Below, one piece after another: positions 382 to 31,302 of a DNA stretch of 32,874 bases; the first letter of the stretch is position 1, and each line of letters opens with the position of its first letter. Source of the DNA: an uncultured bacterium (GTDB lineage Bacteria > Patescibacteriota > Minisyncoccia > Phycocordibacterales > PALSA-1337); NCBI GenBank assembly GCA_903842025.1, contig CAIMKX010000044.1, positions 1 through 32,874 of the forward strand, in the 5' to 3' direction. The notes under the pieces were generated by a model. The model ran no database searches and was not told the DNA's origin. It worked only from the letters and a program-made list of their open reading frames with translations. Position numbers and translations under genes: made by a program.

Positions 382-400
382 CGTAATTGTAACCCACAAC
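382..400 (-). promoter_or_regulatory. Upstream element shared with the paralogue at 3657-3675
   Basis: Read on the minus strand, the 19 bases GTTGTGGGTTACAATTACG match the element upstream of the 635-residue paralogue at 16 of 19 positions. The core GTTACAATTA is identical in both and contains TACAAT, a good -10 hexamer. No convincing -35 box is seen at the expected distance. It is probably a common promoter for the two paralogues. Confidence 0.45.
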
Positions 401-577
401 TGCGCGTTATGCGATGCATACTGTGGATAGTGCGAGTATCCACTTCTTGTCCCCCGTCTCATATCTTTACAAATAGACGATTTTGTGCCACGCTTGATCC
501 TAGATTGGACTATATCGTCTGTTCGTTGACAACGATGTGAAGTTCCGTCACTCAAACGCAACAAGAAAGGAATCTTT

Positions 578-1489
578 ATGAAAATAATGATCGCAATCAT
601 CAGACTGATTGCCCTCTATTCTTTCCTGATCGTTGCGCCTAGCGCGACTTCAGGACAGAATGCCTCTTCAGCGCCGATGCTGACACCGAATTATTTGCCG
701 GTCAAGGATCTCCAAACGGTCCGTGAATGGGCCGTCACCAACGAACAGTTTCGACAGTTCGTCGGTTTTGACCTCAACTACCAAGACGCTGTAAGCGGCG
801 AATGGTACAGCGAAGGTTGGCCTTATCAAGCCGTCAGATTTCATTCATACGCCGACTATGAGGATTTCATGGTCGAGCATTGTATGAATATCCTCAGTGA
901 TATTCGCACCCAAAAAAATGTCGGGCCGGAAATCGATCTGTGGGCTATGGTGGATGCCTGGGAACCGATACCGCCGACGATTATGATCGAGGCTTTCTTC
1001 ATGCAAATCAATGAAATCACGGCTGATTCATTCCGTAATCTACCTCCAAAGTTTATTCAAGCCTGGGTATCTGTCCCAGGCCTGCAAAAATTTGAGGTAA
1101 CCCTTGACGGAGTAGATCAACACCCTACTCTGTACCCTCAATTCCCTGGCTTCATCTTGATCGAACAACAGTTTCTGTTTGCGACGAACAATTGGGTGTT
1201 CAAGATTACGGCCAATGATCAGACGGCTACGTACGACAAATACGGCTCTCTAATCATTCCAACCATCAGTCTTATCATCAACCGGTCCAATTCAACCTTG
1301 ACTGTTTCATTGCCTGAAGACATTGGAGTCCTGATAGAATCAAGTCCGGACCTTAAGACTTGGTCGGCGGTGACCGAAATACCGCCAGCCAGCAAACCGA
1401 ACTTCACATCAATCGAGATTAGCGCTACGAAAGCCAGTAGGTTGCCGGCCCAACAAGCCATGCAATTCTATCGAGCAACGCCGCACTAA
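578..1489 (+). CDS. Secreted hypothetical protein with a verrucomicrobial-like C-terminal segment
   Basis: This 303-residue protein starts at an ATG with a good ribosome site (AAGAAAGG, about 7 bases upstream), unlike most genes here. Residues 1-26 form a signal peptide (IRLIALYSFLIVAPSATS). The middle, rich in aromatic and acidic residues, is not recognised. The C-terminus has a segment of the type IESSPDLKTW, followed about 45 residues later by FYRA. That pattern is familiar from many secreted Verrucomicrobia and Planctomycetes proteins (SSxDLxxW ... FFR). It lies on the opposite strand to the two secreted paralogues around it and may have been acquired by transfer; this is inference from motif resemblance and the strong ribosome site. 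No catalytic function is assigned. Confidence 0.7.
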   Translation: MKIMIAIIRLIALYSFLIVAPSATSGQNASSAPMLTPNYLPVKDLQTVREWAVTNEQFRQFVGFDLNYQDAVSGEWYSEGWPYQAVRFHSYADYEDFMVEHCMNILSDIRTQKNVGPEIDLWAMVDAWEPIPPTIMIEAFFMQINEITADSFRNLPPKFIQAWVSVPGLQKFEVTLDGVDQHPTLYPQFPGFILIEQQFLFATNNWVFKITANDQTATYDKYGSLIIPTISLIINRSNSTLTVSLPEDIGVLIESSPDLKTWSAVTEIPPASKPNFTSIEISATKASRLPAQQAMQFYRATPH

Positions 1490-1504
1490 TTCACGACATA
1501 CGAG

Positions 1505-1536
1505 AAATTCCCCACTCCCTCAAGTTTGGGGAATTT
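1505..1536 (+). terminator. Hairpin terminator after the 578-1489 gene
   Basis: A 10-bp perfect stem (AAATTCCCCA, 1505-1514, with TGGGGAATTT, 1527-1536) and a 12-base loop begins 15 bases after the stop codon. The AT-rich ends (T's on the right, A's on the left) could let it work in both directions. Confidence 0.6.
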
Positions 1537-1546
1537 TCTATTCATA

Positions 1547-1710
1547 AAGCGACCCCTCACAATCTTTTTCATCACCGACGATAATTTGCGACCAATGTAC
1601 CGCTGTATTTTCCAAAGGATGAGTGAATCCTTGGAGCGAATCCTTTGTGAAAATACCGGTACATTGGAAGCAAAGTCGGAGGGGATGAAAAAGATTGTGA
1701 GGGGTCGCTT
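1547..1710. repeat. MITE-like fold-back element with 27-bp perfect terminal inverted repeats
   Basis: Bases 1547-1573 are the exact reverse complement of 1684-1710. The interior also pairs imperfectly: the ACCAATGTACCG and CAAAGGAT stretches on the left match CGGTACATTGG and ATCCTTTG on the right. The whole 164 bp can therefore fold into one long hairpin. It fills the gap between two convergent genes. No target-site duplication is evident at the edges, and no transposase is present. It could be a mobile miniature element or a very long bidirectional terminator. Confidence 0.7.
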
Positions 1711-1724
1711 CAAAATGTCATTCC

Positions 1725-3632
1725 CTAGATTTCCGTCTGTGATACATCAGTCACGATCAACTTCACGGAATTTGATTCATAAAATTCCGAAGAGTTAGTT
1801 ATATTTTTACATCTCACCTTGAAATCATACGGGCCCAAATCGGCCGATGCGGAACTCAAATCGACATTCATGTTTTGAGACACTGTCTCTATGTCAACTT
1901 TATTACTAAGACTCTGATTCTTGTCCCAATACCCGCTTCCGCCGTTGCTGATCACGGCGCTACATTGATAGATTTTTTTCTTGGTGACCGGATCGATCAT
2001 TCCGGAATAAGCGTTCGTCCACTTCAAGCCAAAACCGGAACCGACCCTTATCATATAGGCCCTTTCACTACCAATACTAGCCGATGCGCCAGTCGCTCCG
2101 ATCTTCAGGGTCAAGGCGTCGCCGATAACCGTCATATTGCCGCAATTGGCATAGCCGGAGACCTTCTTGGGCGAACTATTGTCGTAAATTTTGACCCGAG
2201 TCATGCCGCCAAGCCTTGGAGAGACGTATTTATTCCTCCAGGTTGTGGCCGTTGAAGGACCCGTATCGGGATAAAAGCCGTTGCCAGTTTCGAAACTATA
2301 GGTATAAGCGCTGAGCGGCCCGACTCCCCCCACGATCAGAGCCGGATTGATGGTAAAGACGACGAAGGCATTGTTATTTTTCGGATCGAGAATGACCGAA
2401 TAATTTCCTTTGCCGTCAGAATATAGTGGCGTTAAAGATACTGGATCCGCCGATATCGTGCAGGCGTTGGAGGCCGTTATGCCTCCAAAAGATGGAGTTG
2501 GCGAAGGTGAAGTCACGGTGACCGAGCAGATCGGAGCGACTGTCACGCCGGTATTGACATCCCGAATGGTCAACGGCTGAGTTATCGTCATCGGATTGGA
2601 ATATGTCACCGATTTTGAACTATCAGTCACCCAACCATGGCTGTCGGACCAATCGTATTCATACTGATTCGTCCCTCCGGAAGGCTTGGCGGTGAATGTC
2701 ACGGATCCGTTTAGAACCGAATTCGAGCAGCTCCCGGTGAATGAAACTGATGAGACAGGCGTGTCGGAATTGAAATCAACCCAACCGACGACTTCCCCGC
2801 CCCAGGCTTTGCCGGTTAATTTGCCGGTTAAAATATCCAAAAACAATCCATAATTTCCGGTCTTTAAAGGATCCGCTTGGGAATTATGATTTGTTCCTGC
2901 CAACTCTATCCAACCATCCCAACCGTCAGTCCGCGAAGTCATCGACGAGCAATCGCCGGAAACTGTGCCGGCGCAAGCCCGGGCCCAACCGGAAACAACA
3001 CCTGTGGCCAAGTTGATCTTGGCGTTTCCTGATCCCGTCGGGAAATCGGAAAGACACGAACCAGAAGGACAGCCGAACTTGATCCAGCCGATGTTCGGCG
3101 ACCAAGACCAGCCGGTGAGATCGCCGGTAACGGCATTCAGAGCTATCGGATCAAGCTTAAACCAACCGATATTGGACGACCAAGCCCAACCGCTGAGGTT
3201 AGAAGGGATTGAAGGGGTGGGAATTGGTGTAGGAGTGGGAGTGCCTGAAGGAGTGGCGATGCAGACGCTAGTTTTGAAAAAGACGTCGCTTCCGGTGAAC
3301 CAACGTGGCAAAGCGTCAGGGGTCAGGACGAAAGCCGTAAACTTGTAATCCGTGTCGCAGATCAGATCATTGACCGTAAAATGAAAAGGCTCCTGAACGC
3401 TTGTCGTAATGTTCGACACCGGCTGGCCGTACAATTGACCCTTCGGCGACAGATAAAAGCCCCTTCCGGTGATGGCTGTCCAGCCGGACACATCGCCGTT
3501 CAAGGTGACGGAAGTATCGGTAAGGTTCGTCACCGGCTCTGATGAGATCGTTCCGAGAGCGTAGGCGTTATTTGCCTTAAAGAATAACGCTCCGATAATG
3601 AGAAAAAAAATGACGAGTAGGGATTTTTTCAT
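1725..3632 (-). CDS. Secreted protein with GWAW/NIGW repeats, signal peptide and PT-rich linker
   Basis: This protein has 635 residues. Residues 1-26 are a signal peptide ending near AYA. Residues 27-122 are a beta-rich module shared with the gene at 1-350. Residues 128-145 are a Pro/Thr linker. From about 147 to 290 there are repeated motifs, SGWAWSSNIGW, TGWSWSPNIGWIKF, SGWARAC, DGWDGWIEL and TGKAWGGEVVGWVDF. This repeat type is common in exported proteins of Parcubacteria. Residues 300-370 look like an Ig/PKD-type domain (FTGSCSNSVLNGSVTF). The rest is unassigned, with scattered cysteines that may form disulfides. No LPXTG motif or C-terminal membrane helix is seen, so the protein is either released or held by other contacts. 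The ATG start has no Shine-Dalgarno. Confidence 0.8.
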   Translation of the reverse strand: MKKSLLVIFFLIIGALFFKANNAYALGTISSEPVTNLTDTSVTLNGDVSGWTAITGRGFYLSPKGQLYGQPVSNITTSVQEPFHFTVNDLICDTDYKFTAFVLTPDALPRWFTGSDVFFKTSVCIATPSGTPTPTPIPTPSIPSNLSGWAWSSNIGWFKLDPIALNAVTGDLTGWSWSPNIGWIKFGCPSGSCLSDFPTGSGNAKINLATGVVSGWARACAGTVSGDCSSMTSRTDGWDGWIELAGTNHNSQADPLKTGNYGLFLDILTGKLTGKAWGGEVVGWVDFNSDTPVSSVSFTGSCSNSVLNGSVTFTAKPSGGTNQYEYDWSDSHGWVTDSSKSVTYSNPMTITQPLTIRDVNTGVTVAPICSVTVTSPSPTPSFGGITASNACTISADPVSLTPLYSDGKGNYSVILDPKNNNAFVVFTINPALIVGGVGPLSAYTYSFETGNGFYPDTGPSTATTWRNKYVSPRLGGMTRVKIYDNSSPKKVSGYANCGNMTVIGDALTLKIGATGASASIGSERAYMIRVGSGFGLKWTNAYSGMIDPVTKKKIYQCSAVISNGGSGYWDKNQSLSNKVDIETVSQNMNVDLSSASADLGPYDFKVRCKNITNSSEFYESNSVKLIVTDVSQTEI

Positions 3633-6433: not shown

Positions 6434-6877
6434 CTATTTATGATGATACTTCTCCCCTTTTATTATCGTAAAAGCCCGATAAATCTGCTCCGCCAATATG
6501 CTTCGAACCAATTCATGGGGAAAAACCATGGCCGACAGAGAAATGGATTGCTGGGCCACTTCTTTGACTTTTTCATCGATACCATAAGCGCCTCCGATCA
6601 CGAAAACGATATTCTTGACGCTTTCGTTCAAGCGCTTTTCAATTAGATTTGAGAACTGAAGAGAATCCAGCGACTTACCATTTTCATCCAGGATAACGAC
6701 AAAGGAATTGGCGGGAATTATTTTAAGTATTTTATCTGCCTCATCAGATGGTTCTGAAGGTGAAATAAATTTCCACTCAATCGACGAGTAATGCGAAATC
6801 CGTGATGTGTATTCCAAGACGACGTCTTCGCTGAGATATCCTTTGGCCTTGCCGGGTGAAATGATCAGGATGTTCAT
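6434..6877 (-). CDS. rlmH: 23S rRNA (pseudouridine-1915 N3)-methyltransferase
   Basis: SPOUT-family methyltransferase that modifies pseudouridine 1915 in helix 69 of 23S rRNA using S-adenosylmethionine. Visible signatures are FVVILDENGKSLDS, FVIGGAYGIDEKV (the SAM-binding knot) and the highly conserved C-terminus PHELVRSILAEQIYRAFTI, then KGEKYHHK. I chose the ATG at 6877, giving 147 residues that begin MNILIISPG. The longer frame to 6973 would overlap the upstream gene, and its first 32 residues do not look like RlmH. An ATG two codons earlier (6883) is equally possible. No Shine-Dalgarno is seen. The gene follows the HicB-like gene by 32 bases. Confidence 0.93.
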   Translation of the reverse strand: MNILIISPGKAKGYLSEDVVLEYTSRISHYSSIEWKFISPSEPSDEADKILKIIPANSFVVILDENGKSLDSLQFSNLIEKRLNESVKNIVFVIGGAYGIDEKVKEVAQQSISLSAMVFPHELVRSILAEQIYRAFTIIKGEKYHHK

Positions 6878-6909
6878 AGGCATTTTGTCGGAACAAGGCC
6901 TGGCATGCG

Positions 6910-7200
6910 TTAGGCAAGCATCGGCACACTGAACATTTGCGTATCCTGCGCCACGACCATAGGCGGCTTCCATTCACTCTTCTGCTTAGTCCAACCAAGA
7001 TCAAATAAGACGATATCAAGCGTACCCATACGTAAACATTCATCAAAAAAGATCTGAACGACCTTCCCAAAATGCTTTTTAGCTTGCTCAAAAGTAGCCC
7101 CTGACGTAGAGAGATCCAATGAAGGCGTATAGGCAACAAATTGCTTCCCTTCACGAAGAAATGTCACCGGTAATGAGGCCTGAAAGTTGATCTTTTTCAT
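6910..7200 (-). CDS. HicB-like (UPF0150-type) protein without a HicA partner
   Basis: This 96-residue protein has the HicB-type beta-beta-beta-alpha start, FVAYTPSLDLSTSGATFEQA, followed by an amphipathic helix (KKHFGKVVQIFFDECLRMG). This matches the partial RNase H-like fold of HicB antitoxins. No HicA toxin (about 60 residues with a double-stranded RNA-binding fold) is present on either side. A C-terminal DNA-binding domain typical of full HicB is not evident. It may be an orphan antitoxin or a domesticated protein of unknown role. The family call rests on fold-pattern resemblance only. Confidence 0.6.
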   Translation of the reverse strand: MKKINFQASLPVTFLREGKQFVAYTPSLDLSTSGATFEQAKKHFGKVVQIFFDECLRMGTLDIVLFDLGWTKQKSEWKPPMVVAQDTQMFSVPMLA

Positions 7201-7232
7201 GGATTTATATTAGCAAACGAACAAACGCAAAT

Positions 7233-7244
7233 CAATTGGTGACC
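7233..7244. repeat. Putative attL: 12-bp copy of the tRNA-Glu 3' end
   Basis: CAATTGGTGACC is identical to 10591-10602, which spans the encoded CCA end and acceptor stem of tRNA-Glu plus four bases downstream. The next bases (ttatacgggattgg) still resemble the continuing tRNA sequence (ttaccgggagtcg). This suggests a decayed remnant of the tRNA 3' end at the far boundary of an inserted element. Confidence 0.5.
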
Positions 7245-7327
7245 CACATTATACGGGATTGGAAACAGATTGTTGAATATCTGACTGATTTCAAGAGATT
7301 CATCAGACTAAATGATGAAGATGCTCT

Positions 7328-7354
7328 TTAACAATTACTCGAATTGTGTATAAT
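7328..7354 (+). promoter_or_regulatory. Possible promoter for the SDH-family protease
   Basis: A perfect TATAAT (7349-7354) lies 19 bases before the ATG at 7374. TTAACA (7328-7333) could be the -35 box, but the 15-base spacer is short. Confidence 0.35.
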
Positions 7355-7373
7355 AATCATCATAGAAATAAAT

Positions 7374-8300
7374 ATGAACGAAAATCCAGAAATAATTAAC
7401 ATATTCAATGAAGTCCAGCAGGCCTTTAATCTGCGCAAACCTCTTCTAAAAGAGTGGAGCGATAAAAACGGTGGCAGAAATGTTATTGCGTTTTTCTCTT
7501 CATTCTCTCATCCCGGAGCTATGATTCAAGATCAAGATCGTGATTATCTGGAAGAATTACTTTCCAAAATGGATTCTACAAAAGGATTGGATCTTATTTT
7601 AAGCAGTCCCGGTGGTTACCCTCTTGCTGCCGAAAGGATCATCCAGACCTGCCAATCATATTCATCGGATTTCAGAGTAGTTGTACCAAAACTGGCCAAA
7701 TCAGCAGCTACCATGATTGCATTCGGAGCGAAGTCTATTCTTCTTGGAGAAACATCAGAACTTGGTCCAGTTGATCCGCAGATAAACTATAAAGATCAAA
7801 GAGGTGAGCTTGTTACTCGTTCTGCCTACGCGGTTGTCAAAGGTGTTGAAGAAATACTAGAGAAGATCAAACAATCTCCAATGAATTCCAGAATAGAGGG
7901 ATTGCTAAGCCTTTTACCGCCAATTGACCAGCCGTTCTTGGAGGAATGTAAAATAGCACAGGAACTTTCTAAAGATATAGCTATACGATATCTAAAGATG
8001 ACAACCTTCCCTTCTCTAAAAGAAAGGAAGTCCAGCCAATCTGATAACAGTGACTGTATTGAAAACAAGATCAAGAAATTCCTTATGCCAGAGGAGACTT
8101 TCTCTCATGGCCGTCCGATAACCTTTAATGAGGCAAAACAGATTGGTCTGAAGGTTGAGTTACTAAAAAAAGAAGATCCGAAATGGGAACTCCTTTTGAG
8201 GATTTATAGTCGAACAAATTTTGTTGTCCAAAATTCTACAGTTATCAAATTGATTGAGAATCCTGAAAATAGTTTCGCTGCCTCAATACCCCCTCGGTAG
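7374..8300 (+). CDS. SDH-family (SppA/ClpP-class) serine protease
   Basis: This 308-residue protein belongs to the serine dehydrogenase proteinase-like family of the ClpP/crotonase fold. It shows the oxyanion-strand glycines in LDLILSSPGGYPLAAE (about 72-87), then VVVPKLAKSAATMIAFGAKS, in which Ser110 is the likely nucleophile. SELGPVDPQI follows, a hallmark of this family. A conserved HGRPITFNEAKQIGL segment lies near the C-terminus. No signal peptide or membrane helix is seen, so it is probably cytoplasmic, or recruited to membranes by a partner. I chose the ATG at 7374 over a TTG ten codons upstream because the extra residues are only a run of Ile. Its place in an island with a restriction-nuclease remnant hints at a defence or stress role, which is inference. 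Confidence 0.8.
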   Translation: MNENPEIINIFNEVQQAFNLRKPLLKEWSDKNGGRNVIAFFSSFSHPGAMIQDQDRDYLEELLSKMDSTKGLDLILSSPGGYPLAAERIIQTCQSYSSDFRVVVPKLAKSAATMIAFGAKSILLGETSELGPVDPQINYKDQRGELVTRSAYAVVKGVEEILEKIKQSPMNSRIEGLLSLLPPIDQPFLEECKIAQELSKDIAIRYLKMTTFPSLKERKSSQSDNSDCIENKIKKFLMPEETFSHGRPITFNEAKQIGLKVELLKKEDPKWELLLRIYSRTNFVVQNSTVIKLIENPENSFAASIPPR

Positions 8301-8460
8301 CCGAACCCGGATTCGTAGTCCATTGATATTTTGATGACTGCCCATCTGAATTGGTTTGTCTATACTGTTTCTGAAATTCTCGAACAATACGCAACGCATC
8401 AGATTGATTTCTCTCTGATTGGGCAACTGTCATATCATTTTTTCTTGATTTTTTAATCAT
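8245..8460 (-). CDS. Possible small hypothetical protein
   Basis: An open frame of 71 codons from the ATG at 8460, Gln/Ser/Arg-rich (ALRIVREFQKQYRQ), with no recognised domain. It is convergent with the SDH-family protease and overlaps its 3' end by 56 bases, which counts against it. A TATAAA motif lies about 15 bases before the ATG. Real coding status is uncertain. Confidence 0.25.
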   Translation of the reverse strand: MIKKSRKNDMTVAQSERNQSDALRIVREFQKQYRQTNSDGQSSKYQWTTNPGSATEGVLRQRNYFQDSQSI

Positions 8461-8535
8461 TGAATTAAATAGGTATTTTATAGAGTACCAGAATGGCATA
8501 ATAAAGTCTATAAATTAATAATTACCATTGATGTG

Positions 8536-8736
8536 TTAAGTATACCATAATTGAAATTGCGGATACTGCTTTTTGTCATTATAATCGAGAAACTTATCAT
8601 CTTTCCATACTAACTCCGTAAAGTTCACAAAATCCTCGTTATATCCTCGGCATACAACTATAATACGATGAGATAGCGAATATGGTACAAATCGCAGTAT
8701 TATTTTCGCTAGGAACGGATTCAGGTCGATCTCCAT
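8536..8736 (-). CDS. Possible small hypothetical protein
   Basis: An open frame of 66 codons, MEIDLNPFLAKIILRF to the C-terminal QFQLWYT, with an in-frame stop four codons before the ATG. It is rich in aromatic and charged residues and not recognised. It sits inside the AT-rich island, downstream of the DUF1524 fragment. It may be a gene relic. Confidence 0.25.
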   Translation of the reverse strand: MEIDLNPFLAKIILRFVPYSLSHRIIVVCRGYNEDFVNFTELVWKDDKFLDYNDKKQYPQFQLWYT

Positions 8737-8791
8737 ATAACCTGATCATTGATCAACTATTGGTCGAAGTCAACTAGACTGAGAATAATAG

Positions 8792-9160
8792 CTAAATCTT
8801 CCACACCTTTCGGTATGCGTCTGTAGCAATTTCTTTTGCGCGATTGACTATTGTCTTTGTACCCCAAGAAAAAACTGATTTCTCATAATCACGAATGAAA
8901 TCTTGAATATATGGTTGATTTTGAACCTCTCGCATGAGACTACCTTTTAATTTTTCTAGCTTCTTTTTAGGACTCAGATTACCCAATCTTGAATTAGTTC
9001 TAAAGCTAATAACCAATAGATTTCCTATATTGTCTACAATCTCAAGCGTGTCCGGATCTGGCTTCATATCAGCTTCTGGAGTCTGCGGATAAAAATGTTC
9101 AATATTATGATTTTTTCGTAATGTCTTTTGATCAGGATTAAATCTACTGTCGCGTTTCAT
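8792..9160 (-). pseudogene. C-terminal fragment of a DUF262/DUF1524 (GmrSD-type) restriction nuclease
   Basis: The 122 codons carry the DUF1524 HNH-like signature: HNIEHFYPQ (near residues 18-26), then a DNIGNLLVIS strand, TNSRLGNLSPKKKLEKLK, and the typical tail with a Trp/Arg-rich helix (IVNRAKEIATDAYRKVWKI). In full-length GmrSD and related DUF262 proteins this is the C-terminal nuclease domain, and several hundred residues (DUF262 NTPase) precede it. Here an in-frame TAG sits directly before the ATG, and the recombinase begins within the same bases on the other strand. The gene is therefore an amputated remnant; the first dozen residues may not be original sequence. Confidence 0.7.
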
Positions 9161-10635
9161 CTACTGAACAGGTAGACGGCACTTCTCTTGAATCGCAGGA
9201 AAAAGTCTGTCGAGAATTCTGCGCGCGTGAGCATATTCAAGTATTGAAAGTATTCGTGGAAAAAGGAGAATCGGCCAAAACTGCTGAACGCACTGAATTC
9301 ATAAATGCCATTAGCTTCTGCTCGGATAAAAAGAACGCTGTCGATTATTTCGTCGTCTACAAGCTCGACCGCTTCGCCCGAAATCAGGCTGATCATATTA
9401 CCGTTAGACAAACGCTCAAGAAATACCACACTGAATTGAAATCAGTCACTGAACCAATTAGCGATAGTCCGGTTGGCAAAATGATGGAGGGTATATTGTC
9501 GGCTTTTGCTGAATTCGACAATAATGTACGTACGGAAAGAAGCGTTAATGGTATGAAAGAACGCATCAAGCAAGGAATATGGGTCTGGCAAGCTCCTATG
9601 GGCTATTGCAGAACTGAAAAAGGCACTAACCTCACACCACATCCAACTTACGCTCCATTCATAAAAACAATCTTTGAGGAATACGCCAAAGGTATCCATA
9701 CATTCGATTCACTAGCTAAATATGTTACTGATCGAGGCTTCACTATGAAGAACGGCAAACCAGCTATTCCACAACTTATTGAAAAGATAATCAGAAATCC
9801 TCTCTATTGTGGAAGAATCAAAGTCTGGGACATAGAGATCAAAGGAAAATTTGAACCAATCATCAGCGAACGACTATTCGATCAATGCCAAGAAAGCGGT
9901 AAACGCAGACCAAAAACTCCACGACTAGCAAAAAATAGTGACTTCCCATTAAGAAAGTTAGCAACATGCGAATTCTGCAATAAGCCACTAACCGGAAGCA
10001 AAGCCACCGGAAGACAAGGGCAAAAATATCCGTATTACCACCATCACAAGCAAAACTGTGAGCACGCCGCCTTCGTACCAAAAGCCCACTTCGAGCAAAT
10101 GTTCGTAGAGTACCTCCAAGAGATAACACCGAGCTTCAAATTCGAGGAATCATTCAAGGCCATAGTCCTCGATATCTGGAAAAACAACTTCAAGAAATTC
10201 GATGAAGAAAACGAGCAGATCAAAAAAGCTGTTTCGGTACTAGAGCAGAAAAGACAACGCATCTTCGACCTACACCAAGATAAAACCTACACTGATCAGG
10301 AATTCAAGGATCAGAAAAATCTCCTCGACGACAAAATTAAGAAGCACATGAACCTAATGCACGAGAAATACGACAAAGAATTCAAGATGGACGCCGCACT
10401 AGAGTATTGCTTCGACTTCGTGAGAAATACCGCAAGCACATGGGTAAAGCTCGCAAAGAAGCCGGAAGATCGTCTTTGTTTCCAAAAAATGGTTATATCC
10501 GAAAATGTGCAATTTTCTGGAAATAAATTTGGAAACGCGAAACTAACGCCAATCTACAACCTATATCAGCAATTCTTGCTCGATAAATCCCAATTGGTGA
10601 CCTTACCGGGAGTCGAACCCGGATTACAGCCTTGA
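9142..10635 (+). CDS. Large serine recombinase with damaged start
   Basis: Site-specific DNA integrase or resolvase of the large serine family. The open frame (497 codons) starts directly after a TAA at 9139-9141. Its first residues, IYCRVSSTEQ, hold the catalytic serine motif, followed by TSLESQ, KLDRFARN and a resolvase helix. The Recombinase domain follows (GYCRTEKGTNL to IRNPLYCGRIKV). Then comes a zinc ribbon (CEFCNKPLTG ... YHHHKQNCEH) and a coiled coil near residues 330-420. No ATG, GTG or TTG precedes the serine motif in frame; the first is a TTG at 9244, after the catalytic site. A one-base deletion in the A run near 9139 would explain this. The 3' end overlaps tRNA-Glu in antisense (LVTLPGVEPG is tRNA read-through), as expected for a gene abutting its attachment site. 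Confidence 0.85.
   Translation: MYCRVSSTEQVDGTSLESQEKVCREFCAREHIQVLKVFVEKGESAKTAERTEFINAISFCSDKKNAVDYFVVYKLDRFARNQADHITVRQTLKKYHTELKSVTEPISDSPVGKMMEGILSAFAEFDNNVRTERSVNGMKERIKQGIWVWQAPMGYCRTEKGTNLTPHPTYAPFIKTIFEEYAKGIHTFDSLAKYVTDRGFTMKNGKPAIPQLIEKIIRNPLYCGRIKVWDIEIKGKFEPIISERLFDQCQESGKRRPKTPRLAKNSDFPLRKLATCEFCNKPLTGSKATGRQGQKYPYYHHHKQNCEHAAFVPKAHFEQMFVEYLQEITPSFKFEESFKAIVLDIWKNNFKKFDEENEQIKKAVSVLEQKRQRIFDLHQDKTYTDQEFKDQKNLLDDKIKKHMNLMHEKYDKEFKMDAALEYCFDFVRNTASTWVKLAKKPEDRLCFQKMVISENVQFSGNKFGNAKLTPIYNLYQQFLLDKSQLVTLPGVEPGLQP
10591..10602. repeat. Putative attR: 12-bp repeat in the tRNA-Glu 3' end
   Basis: CAATTGGTGACC is identical to 7233-7244. It spans the encoded CCA and part of the acceptor stem of tRNA-Glu, so insertion here would leave the tRNA intact, as with many tRNA-targeting integrases. 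Confidence 0.5.
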
Positions 10636-10669
10636 GAAGGCCGTGTCCTAACCATTAGACGATAAGGCC
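10595..10669 (-). tRNA. tRNA-Glu(CUC), CCA encoded
   Basis: Cloverleaf read on the minus strand. The acceptor GGCCTTA pairs with TAAGGTC (one G-T pair). The anticodon arm is CGGCC-TTCTCAA-GGCTG, giving anticodon CTC for GAG codons. The T arm is CCGGG-TTCGACT-CCCGG. The discriminator A is followed by an encoded CCA, unlike the tRNA-Gly in this window. It lies 5 bases after the murF stop on the same strand, so it may be co-transcribed with murF. Confidence 0.93.
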
Positions 10670-10674
10670 CGATT

Positions 10675-11982
10675 CTATGCTTTCTCCAACCACTCCTTTT
10701 CCTGTCGCACAAGGAGTTTATCTACTTTCTCCGGTTCTTTCAAGAGGGCTTTGACGACCCTTTCCATCCGCATGGACTGGGAGCCTTTGACCAGGACAAT
10801 GTCGCCGGTTTTGACTTCAGGGACAATAAAGGCCGCGGCTTCAGAGGAGGTGTCAAAGGAGTGAATCATCGAGGAAGATAAACTGCTCTTTTGGGCCTCT
10901 TCGGCGGTCATGTTGGAACGGGGACCGACAGTAATGAGATAGTCGGCGGAGCCGAGACATTCCTGGCCGATCTGGCGATGAGCTTCGGCGGAGAATTTTC
11001 CCAACTCCATCATGTCGCCCAGGACGGCGATCTTCGTTCCGGAACATTGGAGACTTTTTAGTGTGGCCAAAGCCGATGAGGCGGCATCAGGTGATGAGTT
11101 GTATGTGTCGTCGATGATGGTTGAACCATTTATTCCAGCGATCAAATTCATGCGACCCTTTGGCGCTTCATATTCGGACAAAGACTTCCCTATTGATTCG
11201 ACGGATAAGTTCCGGGCTTTGGCGACTGCGGCCGCCGCCAGCAAAGGATACATGTAGGTTTCGCCAGCGACATTTTTGATCTTTACAGGAATGGAATCGC
11301 CGCCAGATTTGATGGTAAATCCGAAACCAATTGGCGCTTTCGTGATCGCATTATAATCCGTGGCGCCATCCAGTCCCTGAATTGTGGACATGTCCGATTT
11401 GCCGTAGGAAATTACCTGAATATTTTTCTCCTTGACCCTTCCGGCCAGAGACATGACCTTATTATCATCGGCGGCCAGGATAAGAGTGCCACCATTCTTC
11501 ACCGCCATAGCCAAAGCCGCCTTCTCTTCGAAGACTTCCTCGGCCGATCTGAAGAATTCGACATGGACGGGCAGACGGCTGATCTTGGTCATGACGGCTA
11601 CGTCCGGCTTCAACCATTTGGCGACTTTCTTGATGTCATTGGGATGATCGGCACCGATTTCCAGTATGAGACAGTCCGGATATTCATTCTTCCAAAGTAT
11701 CAAAGAAAGCCCGTGTGTCAAATTTTTCAGCCAACCCTCCAAACTGTGCCAAGCGTTGGGCATACCAATGATAGTCAAAGGCAAACCAATCTCGCTGTTC
11801 ATGCTCTTTTCGCTTTTCCTGACAAGTTTGCTTTGATCCTTCAATACGCAATATATGGCGTCTTTCGTAGAAGTCTTGCCCACACTTCCGGTCACGGCCA
11901 CGATAAAAGGCTTGTATTTTCGCAGAATTAATCGCGATTCCAATGTAAGGACTGCGACGAGGATTGTTTTGATAAGTTGCAT
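10675..11982 (-). CDS. murF: UDP-N-acetylmuramoyl-tripeptide--D-alanyl-D-alanine ligase
   Basis: Mur ligase that adds D-Ala-D-Ala to the UDP-MurNAc-tripeptide, the last cytoplasmic step of the peptidoglycan precursor. The P-loop is AVTGSVGKTSTK (residues 29-40). Other Mur signatures are LILEIGADHPNDIKKVAKWLKP, the central HVEFF and EEKAAL segment, IDDTYNSSPDAASSAL (compare DxYNANPxS in MurF) and IAVLGDMMELG. At 435 residues the length is normal. The N-terminal uridine-binding domain is reduced to a short hydrophobic helix (MQLIKTILVAVLTLESRLIL). That leader may associate with the membrane, and a reduced N-terminal domain is my reading, not a known requirement. It is the last gene of the division/wall cluster and is separated from ftsI by a repeat element. 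Confidence 0.88.
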   Translation of the reverse strand: MQLIKTILVAVLTLESRLILRKYKPFIVAVTGSVGKTSTKDAIYCVLKDQSKLVRKSEKSMNSEIGLPLTIIGMPNAWHSLEGWLKNLTHGLSLILWKNEYPDCLILEIGADHPNDIKKVAKWLKPDVAVMTKISRLPVHVEFFRSAEEVFEEKAALAMAVKNGGTLILAADDNKVMSLAGRVKEKNIQVISYGKSDMSTIQGLDGATDYNAITKAPIGFGFTIKSGGDSIPVKIKNVAGETYMYPLLAAAAVAKARNLSVESIGKSLSEYEAPKGRMNLIAGINGSTIIDDTYNSSPDAASSALATLKSLQCSGTKIAVLGDMMELGKFSAEAHRQIGQECLGSADYLITVGPRSNMTAEEAQKSSLSSSMIHSFDTSSEAAAFIVPEVKTGDIVLVKGSQSMRMERVVKALLKEPEKVDKLLVRQEKEWLEKA

Positions 11983-13933: not shown

Positions 13934-14255
13934 GACCTCCAATCGCTAGGCGGCTAAGCGAAGCCGATTTGGAGATATATTGGCTGACTTTGCCCTGGCT
14001 CAAACCGTATGCCGCCAGCTGGTCGGGAGTCAAAACCCCGCTCAATTTCAGATATTGCGAATCAAGATCGTCGACTTCACGGCCCAGAATTGTCGCCTGG
14101 CCATGGATCTTTTCCAGGGTCACGGTGCTCTGGATGACCTTGTAGATATTCAAACCGTATGTGACGGCCAGAAAAGCGCAGGCCAAAAGAAGCGTCCAAG
14201 TCATGATCGTCCGATATTCCTGGACCAGATTGTAAGTTTTTGCCATTGTCTTCAT
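13923..14255 (-). CDS. ftsL: FtsL-like septum protein
   Basis: This 110-residue bitopic protein has a short cytoplasmic tail, one membrane helix (TWTLLLACAFLAVTYGL, about 19-35) and a heptad-rich outer segment (VTLEKIHGQATILGREVDDL). That is the FtsL/DivIC layout. It would bind the FtsB-like protein and FtsI in the divisome. The sequence is too diverged for a firm call on its own; the position between rsmH and ftsI is the strongest support. The start ATG overlaps the rsmH stop (ATGA), and its 3' end overlaps ftsI, so all three genes form a coupled operon. A second ATG lies three codons later. Confidence 0.72.
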   Translation of the reverse strand: MKTMAKTYNLVQEYRTIMTWTLLLACAFLAVTYGLNIYKVIQSTVTLEKIHGQATILGREVDDLDSQYLKLSGVLTPDQLAAYGLSQGKVSQYISKSASLSRLAIGGHEL

Positions 14256-15346
14256 TGTATTTTTTCTATGATTCTTAATTTTGCGCTTCTCGATCTCGGG
14301 TTCTCGGCGATCTCTTGGGGTCCGGCCGTAATCGGTTTTTTTGTGATAATTTTGGCGCCGTTTTCGCTTTGTTTTTTATTAAAATCCTTGACTATCCGGT
14401 CTTCAAGGCTATGGAATGAAATGACTGCCATCCTGCCTCCCTTATTCAATCTCTCATACCCCTTTATCAAACCCTCTCTCAAGGCATTAAGCTCATCGTT
14501 GACTGCTATTCTGATTGCCTGGAATGTTTTGGTCGCCGGGTGTTTTTGGTGTTTGGTGTTTGCTTGCCCTTCGTAGCTCGCTTTGGGCGAGCGAAGAAGG
14601 GGTGTTTGATTATTGGCATTATTTTTCCAAAACCTTCTCGCGGCAAATGGGATAGCCTGCACAACAATCTCCGCAAATTCCCCGCTGGTTTCGATCTTCT
14701 TTTTCGTCCGATAATTCACGATCGCCCTGGCTATTCTCCTGGCAAACCTTTCCTCTCCATAGCCGAAGATGATGTCGGCGATGACATTCTCTTCCCAATC
14801 GTTCACTATGTCCGTTGCGGTGAAAGGATAATTCTTGGTATCACCCATAGTCATGAGAAGCGGCTCATCTTTCTGGAAACTAAATCCCCTTCCGGAATTC
14901 TCCAATTCATCGGATGAGATTCCCAAATCCAGGAGAATAGCGTCAACAGATCCGATCCCGTACTTATCCAAAACCTTATCGAGATTGCGGAAATTTTCAT
15001 TTTCGATGATCACTCGCTCGGCTTTGCCGGATAAGGTTTGGATCCCTCTCTTGACCGCCTCGGGATCGCGATCAAGTCCTATAATATTCACCTTACCGTT
15101 CATGGCCTTGGCGATGGCCATCGCGTGTCCGCCTCCACCGAATGTTCCATCCAGATAGGTAAATATCTTATCATTCCCACGAAAACTTGAATTGGAGAGA
15201 CTCTCTCGCTTGTCATTCCCGCGAAGGCGGGAATCCAGGATGTCACCACTGACATCTGTTTTGGTAATATCCTGGATTCCCGCTTTCGCGGGAATGACAG
15301 CGCAAATTACTTCATGTAAAAGAACCGGTTCGTGAACGCTCTCCAT
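14252..15346 (-). CDS. rsmH: 16S rRNA (cytosine-1402 N4)-methyltransferase with two repeat-derived insertions
   Basis: SAM-dependent methyltransferase (MraW) acting on C1402 of 16S rRNA. Signatures are HEPVLLHEV at the N-terminus, YLDGTFGGGGHA (SAM loop), NIIGLDRDPEAV, DAILLDLGISSDELEN, RGFSFQKDEPL, HPATKTFQAIRIAVNDEL and ISFHSLEDRIVKDF. It has 364 residues against about 300-315 normally. Two in-frame insertions account for the difference. Residues 16-60 come from a dRS3-like palindrome (15170-15300), placed before the SAM loop. Residues 239-271 come from a word-like repeat with a hairpin (14535-14632), placed just before HPATKTF. Neither breaks a core motif, so the enzyme is probably active; this is inference. 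Confidence 0.93.
   Translation of the reverse strand: MESVHEPVLLHEVICAVIPAKAGIQDITKTDVSGDILDSRLRGNDKRESLSNSSFRGNDKIFTYLDGTFGGGGHAMAIAKAMNGKVNIIGLDRDPEAVKRGIQTLSGKAERVIIENENFRNLDKVLDKYGIGSVDAILLDLGISSDELENSGRGFSFQKDEPLLMTMGDTKNYPFTATDIVNDWEENVIADIIFGYGEERFARRIARAIVNYRTKKKIETSGEFAEIVVQAIPFAARRFWKNNANNQTPLLRSPKASYEGQANTKHQKHPATKTFQAIRIAVNDELNALREGLIKGYERLNKGGRMAVISFHSLEDRIVKDFNKKQSENGAKIITKKPITAGPQEIAENPRSRSAKLRIIEKIQ
14535..14632. repeat. Word-like repeat and hairpin inside rsmH
   Basis: On the plus strand, GGTGTTTTTGGTGTTTGGTG words precede a hairpin (CTTCGTAGCTCGCTTTGGGC with GAGCGAAGAAG), and further GGTGTTTGATTATTGG words follow. It is translated in frame as part of RsmH (NNQTPLLRSPKASYEGQ), between conserved blocks that are normally nearly adjacent. 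Confidence 0.6.
15170..15300. repeat. dRS3-like palindromic repeat inside rsmH
   Basis: The arms at 15211-15240 and 15270-15299 are near-perfect inverted copies of TCATTCCCGCGAA(A/G)GCGGGAAT followed by CCAGGA. A decayed half copy (ATCATTCCCACGAAAAC) lies at 15170-15185. The same core, ATTCCC-N8-GGGAAT, defines the neisserial dRS3 repeat. It is read in frame (AVIPAKAGIQ and DSRLRGNDK). A second member lies at 31194-31302. Confidence 0.8.
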
Positions 15347-28821: not shown

Positions 28822-31182
28822 ATGAAATTGTTGATCGTCGAGTCACCGTCAAAATCAAAAACTATCTCCAAATATTTGGGGGACGGTTTCGTCGTGCGCG
28901 CCTCGGTCGGACATGTTCGTGACCTGCCAAAATCCAGCAAGAAAGCCGTTGATATCGAAGGCGGTTTCATTCCGCACTATGAAATAGTTCCAAAAAAAGA
29001 GATCATCATTGCCGACATTGTCGCTCAGGCCCAGAAAGCTGATGAAATTCTATTGGCAACCGACCCCGACCGCGAAGGAGAAGCGATCGCTTGGCATATA
29101 GCCGAAGTCCTTAAAGACCGTTTGGGTGCTTCTATCAAAAAGAAGATCAAGCGCGTCACCTACCACGAGATCACCAAGGAAGCCGTTCTGGAGGCTTTGG
29201 AACATCCAAGAGACATCGATGAGCACCTTCGTGAAGCTCAGGAAGCCCGAAGAGTATTGGACAGAATAGTCGGCTATGATTTGTCTGGTCTTATTTGGAA
29301 AAAGGTCCGATACGGTCTATCGGCTGGGCGCGTTCAATCCCCCGCGCTCCGCATAATAATGGAACGCGAGAGAGAAATTCGGGCATTCAAACCGGAAACC
29401 TATTGGGTCATAGCCGGGGAATGGAAAACTTCCAAGAATGAAAAGCTGGCTTTGACTTGTTCCAAAGAACCGCGAGACAAAAAAGAGGTTGATACTATTA
29501 TAGAAGTAGCCAAGAAAGAGCCTTGGCATATTGTTGATGTCGAACAAACCGAGCAAAAAAGGTCACCTCGCGCGCCATTCATCACCTCAACTTTGCAGCA
29601 GACAGCCAGTTCACGACTCGGCTTCTCGCCTTCAAGAACTATGGGCATTGCCCAGAAGCTTTACGAAGCCGGCTACATCACCTACATGCGTACTGATTCC
29701 ACAACTTTAAGTAGTCAAGCGCTAGGTCAGATGGGTCCAATTATCGAAAAGCAATATGGCAAAGAATATTTGAACTTCCGGACTTATACGACCAAGAGCA
29801 AGAATGCCCAAGAAGCTCACGAAGCCATTCGTCCTTCACATTTCGACAAAGAAAATGCCGGACACACCGATGAACAGAAGAAGCTTTACAGACTGATCTG
29901 GCAGAGAGCCCTAGCTTCACAGATGAGCGATGCCAGAGTAGCCAGGACAAAGATCATTGCCAATGTTGGTGCATTGTCATTGCCAAATTTTGAAGCCAAC
30001 GGCTCACGAGTCATCTTCGACGGCTGGCTCAAGGCCGATCCGGAATCCGTCGGTGAAGAAATCAATCTGCCAAAATGCGAAAAGGATGAAAAGTTGGACT
30101 TGACCAGTATTGACTCCACCGAAAAGCAGACAGAGCCACCGTCACGATATACCGAAGCCGGACTCATTAAGGAATTAGAAAAGCGCGGCATCGGCCGTCC
30201 TTCAACATACGCTTCAATCTGTAAAACTATTGAGGACCGCGGCTACATTTCCAAAGAAAATAAATCAATGAAACCGACGGATACCGGTGACGTCGTTTCT
30301 TCATTCCTGGAAGAAAACTTCCCTTCCTACATCAGCGACTCATTCACCGCCGAGATGGAGGACAAGCTCGACGATATTGCCACCGGCAGCCGCACTTACC
30401 TGAAGACGCTTTCCGAATTCTACGGACCATTCCACAAAGAAGTTAAGTCCAAAGACAAGATCGCCAAGATCACCAACCTCGGCGAGGCCGATCCCAAGTT
30501 CAAATGTCCGAAATGCGACACGACTCCCATGGAGATCAAGCTTGGCAAGAACGGCAAGTTCCTTTCCTGCTCAAAATATCCCGACTGCGACGGCGCTCTC
30601 ACCCTGGACGGCACCGAATTCAAGAGCGACACGCCGATCGGCAATGACCCGACGACCGGTTTGCCGATTTACGTCTTGAATGGAAGATTCGGACCGTATG
30701 TGCAGTTGGGAGCGAGAGCGCCGAAGGTGAAGAAGGTGAGGAAGGTTAAAGGGCAAAGGGTAAAGGGTAAAGGTAATAAGGTTGAAAGTTCAGATAATAA
30801 GACCGCCTCAAGCGGAGCACCTATTACACCTGAAGCCGAATCTAATGTGTCAGCACCTTCAAATTTGGAACCGGCTACAGCCGCAGTTCCCCCAAAACCC
30901 AAGATGGCCTCGATTCCGAAGTTCATGGATCCATCCAAGGTCACGGTTGCAGATGCGCTCAAATATTTGAGCCTTCCTAGAAACTTGGGCGTTGATCCGA
31001 AGACCGGCAAAGACGTCATCGCTTCGGCGGGACGCTTCGGTCCTTATATTGTTTCAGATTTGAATTACAGGACTATCAAGGCGCCAGATGTTGTTTACGA
31101 TATTACTCTTGAGCGAGCTTTGGAGATGTTAGCGGTACCTAAGATGAAAAGAGGTGGGAGGTTTGCAAAGAAGAAGGAGTAA
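28822..31182 (+). CDS. topA: DNA topoisomerase I with a repeat-derived linker
   Basis: Type IA topoisomerase that relaxes negative supercoils. The Toprim domain begins LLIVESPSKSKTISKYL and has the acidic motif ATDPDREGEAIAW. The catalytic Tyr is in YITYMRTDST (about residue 288). A four-Cys zinc finger follows (FKCPKCDTTP ... FLSCSKYPDCDG, about 563-593). The C-terminus has topo-I repeat motifs (NGRFGPYVQLG and SAGRFGPYIVSD). An insert of Lys/Val/Arg-rich words (VKKVRKVKGQRVKGKG, about residues 639-657) comes from a short DNA repeat at 30735-30790, and a Pro/Ala/Ser-rich linker follows. Both lie between C-terminal domains, so the core should be unaffected. It is divergent from lepA. Confidence 0.95.
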   Translation: MKLLIVESPSKSKTISKYLGDGFVVRASVGHVRDLPKSSKKAVDIEGGFIPHYEIVPKKEIIIADIVAQAQKADEILLATDPDREGEAIAWHIAEVLKDRLGASIKKKIKRVTYHEITKEAVLEALEHPRDIDEHLREAQEARRVLDRIVGYDLSGLIWKKVRYGLSAGRVQSPALRIIMEREREIRAFKPETYWVIAGEWKTSKNEKLALTCSKEPRDKKEVDTIIEVAKKEPWHIVDVEQTEQKRSPRAPFITSTLQQTASSRLGFSPSRTMGIAQKLYEAGYITYMRTDSTTLSSQALGQMGPIIEKQYGKEYLNFRTYTTKSKNAQEAHEAIRPSHFDKENAGHTDEQKKLYRLIWQRALASQMSDARVARTKIIANVGALSLPNFEANGSRVIFDGWLKADPESVGEEINLPKCEKDEKLDLTSIDSTEKQTEPPSRYTEAGLIKELEKRGIGRPSTYASICKTIEDRGYISKENKSMKPTDTGDVVSSFLEENFPSYISDSFTAEMEDKLDDIATGSRTYLKTLSEFYGPFHKEVKSKDKIAKITNLGEADPKFKCPKCDTTPMEIKLGKNGKFLSCSKYPDCDGALTLDGTEFKSDTPIGNDPTTGLPIYVLNGRFGPYVQLGARAPKVKKVRKVKGQRVKGKGNKVESSDNKTASSGAPITPEAESNVSAPSNLEPATAAVPPKPKMASIPKFMDPSKVTVADALKYLSLPRNLGVDPKTGKDVIASAGRFGPYIVSDLNYRTIKAPDVVYDITLERALEMLAVPKMKRGGRFAKKKE
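30735..30790. repeat. Word-like AAAGGG repeat inside topA
   Basis: Imperfect copies of GGTAAAG / GGCAAAG words (GTTAAAGGGCAAAGGGTAAA, then GGGTAAAGG) encode a basic linker between C-terminal modules of topoisomerase I. Confidence 0.65.
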
Positions 31183-31193
31183 TTAGAAAGACG

Positions 31194-31302
31194 AATCTCT
31201 CGTTTGTCATTCCCGCGAAAGCGGGAATCCAGTGTTGAATCACTGGCGCTCATGTTTAATGCACTGGATTCCCGCTTTCGCGGGAATGACAAACGAGAGA
31301 TT
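31194..31302. repeat. dRS3-like palindromic repeat after topA
   Basis: A 41-bp perfect inverted repeat (31194-31234 with 31262-31302) with a 27-base loop. Each arm contains TCATTCCCGCGAAAGCGGGA, which is itself palindromic. The outer part (TCTCTCG-TTTGTCATTCCC) also matches the copy inside rsmH. T's at 31301-31305 could make it a topA terminator. Confidence 0.85.

Follow-up and report, generated by a model that had tools for sequence, protein, structure and literature searches.

In the window, i.e., the whole analysed stretch of 32,874 nucleotides, the 12-bp direct repeat CAATTGGTGACC occurs in two exact copies (7233–7244 and 10591–10602, plus strand) with a spacing of 3,358 bp, and nowhere else even if two mismatches are allowed. 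The right copy spans the CCA end of an intact tRNA-Glu(CTC) gene on the minus strand (10595–10669; ARAGORN, Rfam RF00005 with 61.3 bits). This gene ends with GGTCACCA followed by ATTG, and the repeat is composed of these eight nucleotides of the tRNA 3' end plus four nucleotides past it. An earlier note on this DNA had described such a repeat on both ends of a small element, with overlap of the tRNA end on the right, and both statements are correct, as is the claimed AT-richer composition (GC content of approximately 36–42% within the element and mostly 44–50% around it). A displaced tRNA 3' end held in a direct repeat at the far boundary, together with an intact tRNA, is the mark of an integrative element in a tRNA gene. 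Thus, in this ultra-small CPR bacterium, 3.4 kb of foreign DNA sit exactly at the end of the tRNA-Glu gene as an integrated element, with the left copy as left att core (attL, the displaced tRNA-Glu 3' end) and the right copy as right att core (attR).

The element starts with an apparently intact gene for a ClpP-like serine protease of the SDH family (7374–8300, plus strand; PF01972 3.5e-18; phrog_11747 3.1e-45 over nearly the full length). Two small open reading frames on the minus strand (8245–8499 and 8536–8736) gave no family in the family searches and may not be genes. They are followed by the C-terminal ~120 residues of a GmrSD-like gene (8792–9160, minus strand; type IV restriction, DUF262/DUF1524) that cover the positions 39–136 of 138 in PF07510 and 467–566 of 569 in the PADLOC model HEC-06. 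About 465 N-terminal residues are gone, as the open frames of homologues comprise ~586 amino acids. The cargo had been called orphan. This does not hold for the protease and the GmrSD_C fragment, which both have families, but the protease is clearly matched in only one of 34 genomes of the genus (the other 33 are without it) and so is not a conserved resident of this locus.

The right part is occupied by a large serine recombinase (9142–10635, plus strand), with a Resolvase catalytic domain (PF00239, 2.6e-31) followed by a Recombinase domain (PF07508, 2.4e-13) as typical for this family, and a match to the phrog_95 integrases (5e-85). Its frame runs into the tRNA gene and the final codons read the antisense strand of tRNA-Glu. 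The catalytic serine motif IYCRVSS is retained. The described position of a serine recombinase next to the right end is therefore correct, but the gene is 5'-truncated and lacks a start codon.

Both flanks are chromosomal. On the right MurF (10675–11982, minus strand) follows, and the murF–tRNA-Glu synteny is conserved in the genus. The first chromosomal gene on the left (6910–7200, minus strand) bears the label HicB-like without a family match and has homologues of 78% and 72% identity in the genomes G025 and G012; next to it lies RlmH, a SPOUT methyltransferase (6434–6973, minus strand; PF02590 2.8e-44). Excision of the 3,358 bp in silico joins murF–tRNA-Glu to the HicB-like gene, rlmH, a cold-shock protein gene and valS, all on one strand. 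The order murF–tRNA-Glu–cold-shock protein–valS is found in G029 and G014, and tRNA-Glu adjoins the cold-shock protein gene also in G010 and G018. Several members of the genus have this gene order without the element, and the HicB-like gene is present at none of them. Among genus genomes, whose MurF identity is only ~52–64%, no strain-level relative with an empty HicB-like/tRNA-Glu junction was found, and in the two loci fetched in full the HicB-like homologues, considered as markers of an empty site, are not beside tRNA-Glu. Of the two findings that the earlier note had named as refuting, neither was made: the HicB-like loci of G025 and G012 are without the repeat, and the cargo is not conserved. 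A palindromic repeat family (PAKAGIQ...SRLRGNDK in translation) has 118 matches in the source genome, with copies at 15211–15299 and 31181–31300, the former in frame inside the rsmH/mraW open reading frame 14252–15346.

The left arm and the recombinase tail

Taken alone, the 12-bp repeat is moderate evidence for integration. Among dinucleotide-shuffled versions of the 10.6 kb to the left, 9 of 300 held some 12-mer present in the 40 bp that surround the tRNA end, and a repeat of equal length anchored on the tRNA end was seen in none of 50. The evidence becomes strong since the left flank matches a half-site-like arm. The 32 bp at 7239–7270 (plus strand), GTGACCCACATTATACGGGATTGGAAACAGAT, recur with one mismatch (31/32) in G027:C23 (L070, 4891–4922), another Taylorbacteria-type genome, which marks 7233 as a real element end because the left repeat copy continues into this recurring arm. 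There the arm is neighboured by an R-M cluster (type II methyltransferase, restriction enzyme and Vsr gene) and a tRNA-Glu 3' fragment. In a second locus of G027 a recombinase of 98% identity runs into TTTGGTGACCCATTATACTGGATT, which resembles the left end of the window element. The half-sites bound by serine integrases measure roughly 25 bp each and flank the core on both sides, and 7239–7270 therefore looks as a P' arm should.

In the recombinase frame the left end reads SQLVT-HIIRDWKQIVEYLTDFKRFIRLNDEDAL up to a stop, with VTHIIQDWKQIIAEIYTWHQFSKANFEKV and a stop as the counterpart in G027:C23. The arm thereby encodes an apparent pre-integration C-terminal tail (VTHIIRDWKQ...), and the left end looks like the former 3' end of the recombinase gene itself. 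The attP appears to lie inside this 3' end, so that integration would rewrite the C-terminal tail of the enzyme.

Similarity between genomes points to horizontal movement. In G023 the recombinase is 97% identical on the amino acid level and occupies the same tRNA-Glu with the same CAATTGGTGACC junction, while MurF is only 63% identical. The respective values for G027 are 98% and 62%, and the recombinase of G001 shows 87% identity.

Truncation and proposed history

The closest relatives carry more than the window element does. All six have a gene for an HUH Rep (PF23343, 1.9e-18) located ~170–200 nt upstream of the recombinase together with a small open reading frame (sORF) of ~60 residues; in the window rep and sORF are absent. 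Relatives also possess origin-like non-coding DNA further upstream. In the recombinases of G023 and G027, IYCRVSS is preceded by a start codon and some ten codons (M-NENxFKNGI), whereas homology in the window begins at codon I11, position 9141–9142, with TAA immediately before the ATC at 9142. The first ten codons are gone and the gene is not a complete, translatable one. At the same point the GmrSD-type gene is cut, with its 3' fifth left on the opposite strand. One deletion near 9141 (junction 9139–9144, with start codon, upstream region, sORF, rep and origin missing leftward) accounts for both truncations. Readthrough or recoding of the TAA was considered for the missing start and is ruled out: the upstream codons are antisense GmrSD and not recombinase.

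The earlier note had taken the element to be very small. That it is naturally complete at this size is not supported: as intact relatives hold an origin-like region, rep, sORF and a complete recombinase, the 3.4 kb measure what is left of an originally larger element, and in comparison with them 7233–10602 is a broken remnant and not a complete small element. Its integration at tRNA-Glu between the repeats is upheld by the repeat itself, the left arm and the junctions of the relatives.

With high confidence we interpret 7233–10602 as the decayed remnant of an element that was integrated at the 3' end of tRNA-Glu by a serine recombinase and suffered a later deletion. The ancestral element would have contained the SDH protease, a GmrSD-type restriction gene, an origin, an HUH (G2P-like) Rep, the sORF and the recombinase. 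It would have entered by attP x attB recombination, with the CCA end of the tRNA as attB (the T-arm serving as one flank) and attP inside the 3'-terminal coding sequence of the recombinase gene. A crossover within TGGTG(ACC), the point we infer, would have kept the tRNA whole and deposited eight nucleotides of its 3' terminus at 7233, on the far side. It would also have carried the original tail of the recombinase to the left end and provided the integrated enzyme with a C-terminus encoded by the antisense strand of the tRNA. The uninterrupted tRNA-Glu/HicB-like junction is predicted as GGTCACCAATTGATTTGCG. A single later deletion would then have joined the GmrSD gene and the recombinase, the latter from codon 11 onward. 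With origin, rep, sORF and start codon lost, this copy is probably immobile and locked in place. The recombinase body shows no frameshift and its private codons comprise 17 synonymous and three non-synonymous changes; so clean a body makes a recent deletion likely, unless the protein is in some way still produced from an ATC start.

Two independent insertions at the same tRNA, i.e., a left element with SDH protease and GmrSD gene and a truncated recombinase element, later fused by deletion, are an unlikely origin of this arrangement. Tandem accretion does occur in relatives (a duplicate tRNA-Arg end in G006, an extra tRNA-Lys fragment at the left end of L145), but here only two repeat copies are present and the left arm matches that of the same recombinase family, so a single element is the simpler solution. 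Considerably less probable is a complete and still mobile 3.4-kb element with minimal cargo and a recombinase started at the non-canonical ATC at 9142. The kept catalytic motif, the whole frame without stops, the few non-synonymous changes and an AGGA four bases ahead of ATC would fit; however, TAA directly precedes this codon, the ten missing codons include a part of β-strand 1 and are present in all close relatives, rep is missing and the restriction gene is truncated at the same point. The least probable reading is a metagenomic mis-assembly at 9141 that joined the GmrSD fragment to a recombinase which in the cell follows an intact origin, rep and sORF: the genome is a draft of 56 contigs and the join lies at a short microhomology (GGATTAAATC versus GGAATAATC), but the sole other close family copy found in it has 67% DNA identity and sits in tRNA-Ala, and no second tRNA-Glu locus was found.

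Relatives at tRNA and tmRNA 3' ends

The decayed element belongs to a family whose position can be followed in genus and order. Recombinases were gathered by similarity to the window protein and not by closeness to tRNA genes; the counts cover the fetched loci among those listed, some of them cut by contig ends. Within the genus 47 of 74 large serine recombinase frames (46 of 72 once two duplicated loci are set aside) stop at most 150 nt from a tRNA or tmRNA gene, with a random expectation of ~2% if 46 tRNA genes per 0.8 Mb are assumed. In all these pairs the genes lie tail to tail, with their 3' ends towards each other. Across the order, 21 of 28 members of the clade (including the three already counted loci G001, G053 and G000:C7) end at a tRNA or tmRNA 3' end within a limit of 200 nt, again all facing it. 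The targets include tRNAs for Glu, Ala, Arg, Lys, Leu, Met, Ser, Gln and Tyr as well as tmRNA. Judged from these positions, the intact relatives show that serine recombinases routinely land at tRNA 3' ends in these CPR bacteria. Tyrosine recombinases of the same genomes number mostly one or two per genome.

In the junction alignment the recombinase-side motif TCTnnTnTGGTG abuts the CCA end, followed by the T-arm GGAnTCGAACC. This suggests an attB half-site made up of the conserved T-arm together with the CCA end, which would let the clade switch between tRNA genes. Three further elements of the genus could be delimited (5.2–5.5 kb, repeats of 20–33 bp), one of them in a tRNA-Lys of the source genome. 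An exact-repeat search for the left att in ~45 relatives gave strong results, besides the window, only in L145, L142 and L126, mostly because contigs end early; a local duplication may account for some of the L142 repeat, and L145 bears the tRNA-Lys fragment mentioned above at its left end.

The source genome G000 carries a high load of twelve large serine recombinase matches in 950 kb. A second, apparently intact family member in it (L041 in G000:C7, reverse strand, ~391–3240) shows the order conserved non-coding stretch, HUH rep, sORF and recombinase, and ends in tRNA-Ala(TGC). The non-coding region upstream of rep (~300 nt conserved; L036 reverse ~156–600, L037 255–610, L041 reverse 357–711, L113 ~6820–7280) is probably the replication origin, and Rfam searches of loci holding it returned no family at this stretch. 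Upstream of rep and recombinase in a further relative of the element, L178 (212–1975), lies the PADLOC candidate-defence gene PDC-M68B (5.8e-47), probably as cargo. The LOOT RNA (Rfam RF03000) occurs at 19 places in the genus (e.g., L178 2728–2842, L115 7402–7518, L037 8671–8786). Eleven copies have a large serine recombinase at a distance of up to 6 kb (~4% expected); nine of these copies lie upstream of it, on the opposite strand. Two more (G003, G026) are within 2 kb of a tyrosine recombinase. This RNA looks like a component of mobile elements.

Known systems and implications

The large serine integrases and cassette chromosome recombinases (phiC31, Bxb1, Ccr) share the Resolvase and Recombinase domains (plus a weak Zn ribbon) with the enzymes described here, and the best NCBIfam relatives are CcrB/CcrA, far under the cut-off. 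The recorded targets of these known enzymes are mostly protein genes, in contrast with the tRNA/tmRNA 3' ends used here and the apparent attP in the recombinase's own 3' end. Islander-class islands resemble our elements in the tRNA 3' end as target, its restoration and the displaced tRNA fragment at the far end, but they depend on tyrosine integrases, while here the enzyme is a large serine recombinase and the repeat is short and confined to the CCA end. Integrative plasmids of the pSAM2 type also combine rep, integrase and tRNA site, and RepSA is a weak second match of the Reps found here. The pSAM2 integrase, however, is of the tyrosine type; the present elements are smaller, use a serine recombinase and show no transfer gene. 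Integrated inoviruses (PMC6813254) share a G2P-like HUH Rep, a serine recombinase, reported CPR hosts and small size. Here the cargo consists of R-M genes, a transporter, a methyltransferase and a protease instead. Neither a Zot-like pI ATPase nor coat genes occur among the scanned genes of the window element and its relatives (a part of all open reading frames), and for lack of Zot among them inovirus membership was rejected. Viral contigs scanned with the intact recombinase of G023 contained no relative.

The literature assigns landing in tRNA genes to a different enzyme family, the tyrosine integrases, and island finders are built on this rule. Nothing against it is contained in the accessible portions of the TIGER/Islander resource (PMC12424338) and of Integrase-On-Demand (PMC12884075), and the main text of a serine-recombinase survey (PMC10083194) does not mention tRNA. 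The inovirus survey (PMC6813254) mentions CPR hosts as well as serine recombinases and tRNA-borne att sites, and in its accessible part the last two are not tied together. A search of the open literature for serine recombinases residing in tRNA genes in CPR bacteria gave nothing relevant; a prior report elsewhere is possible.

It is conceivable, and at present rather doubtful, that serine integrases have radiated in Parcubacteria as specialists of tRNA/tmRNA 3' ends (attB formed by T-arm and CCA end, attP in the integrase 3' end), with integration exchanging the C-terminal tail and this exchange controlling direction or stability like a switch. In the window the corresponding swap would be from HIIRDWKQIVEYLTDF... 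in the circle to LPGVEPGLQP read from the tRNA antisense strand once integrated.

The value of the finding lies in the class to which the remnant belongs. As many tRNA-borne elements here use serine recombinases, searches built around tyrosine integrases would overlook much mobile DNA in CPR bacteria. Serine integrases generally work with few host factors or none, and a clade recognising the conserved T-arm/CCA end would offer portable integration tools for organisms without genetics yet. These elements also illustrate a route by which defence and accessory genes move between very small genomes.
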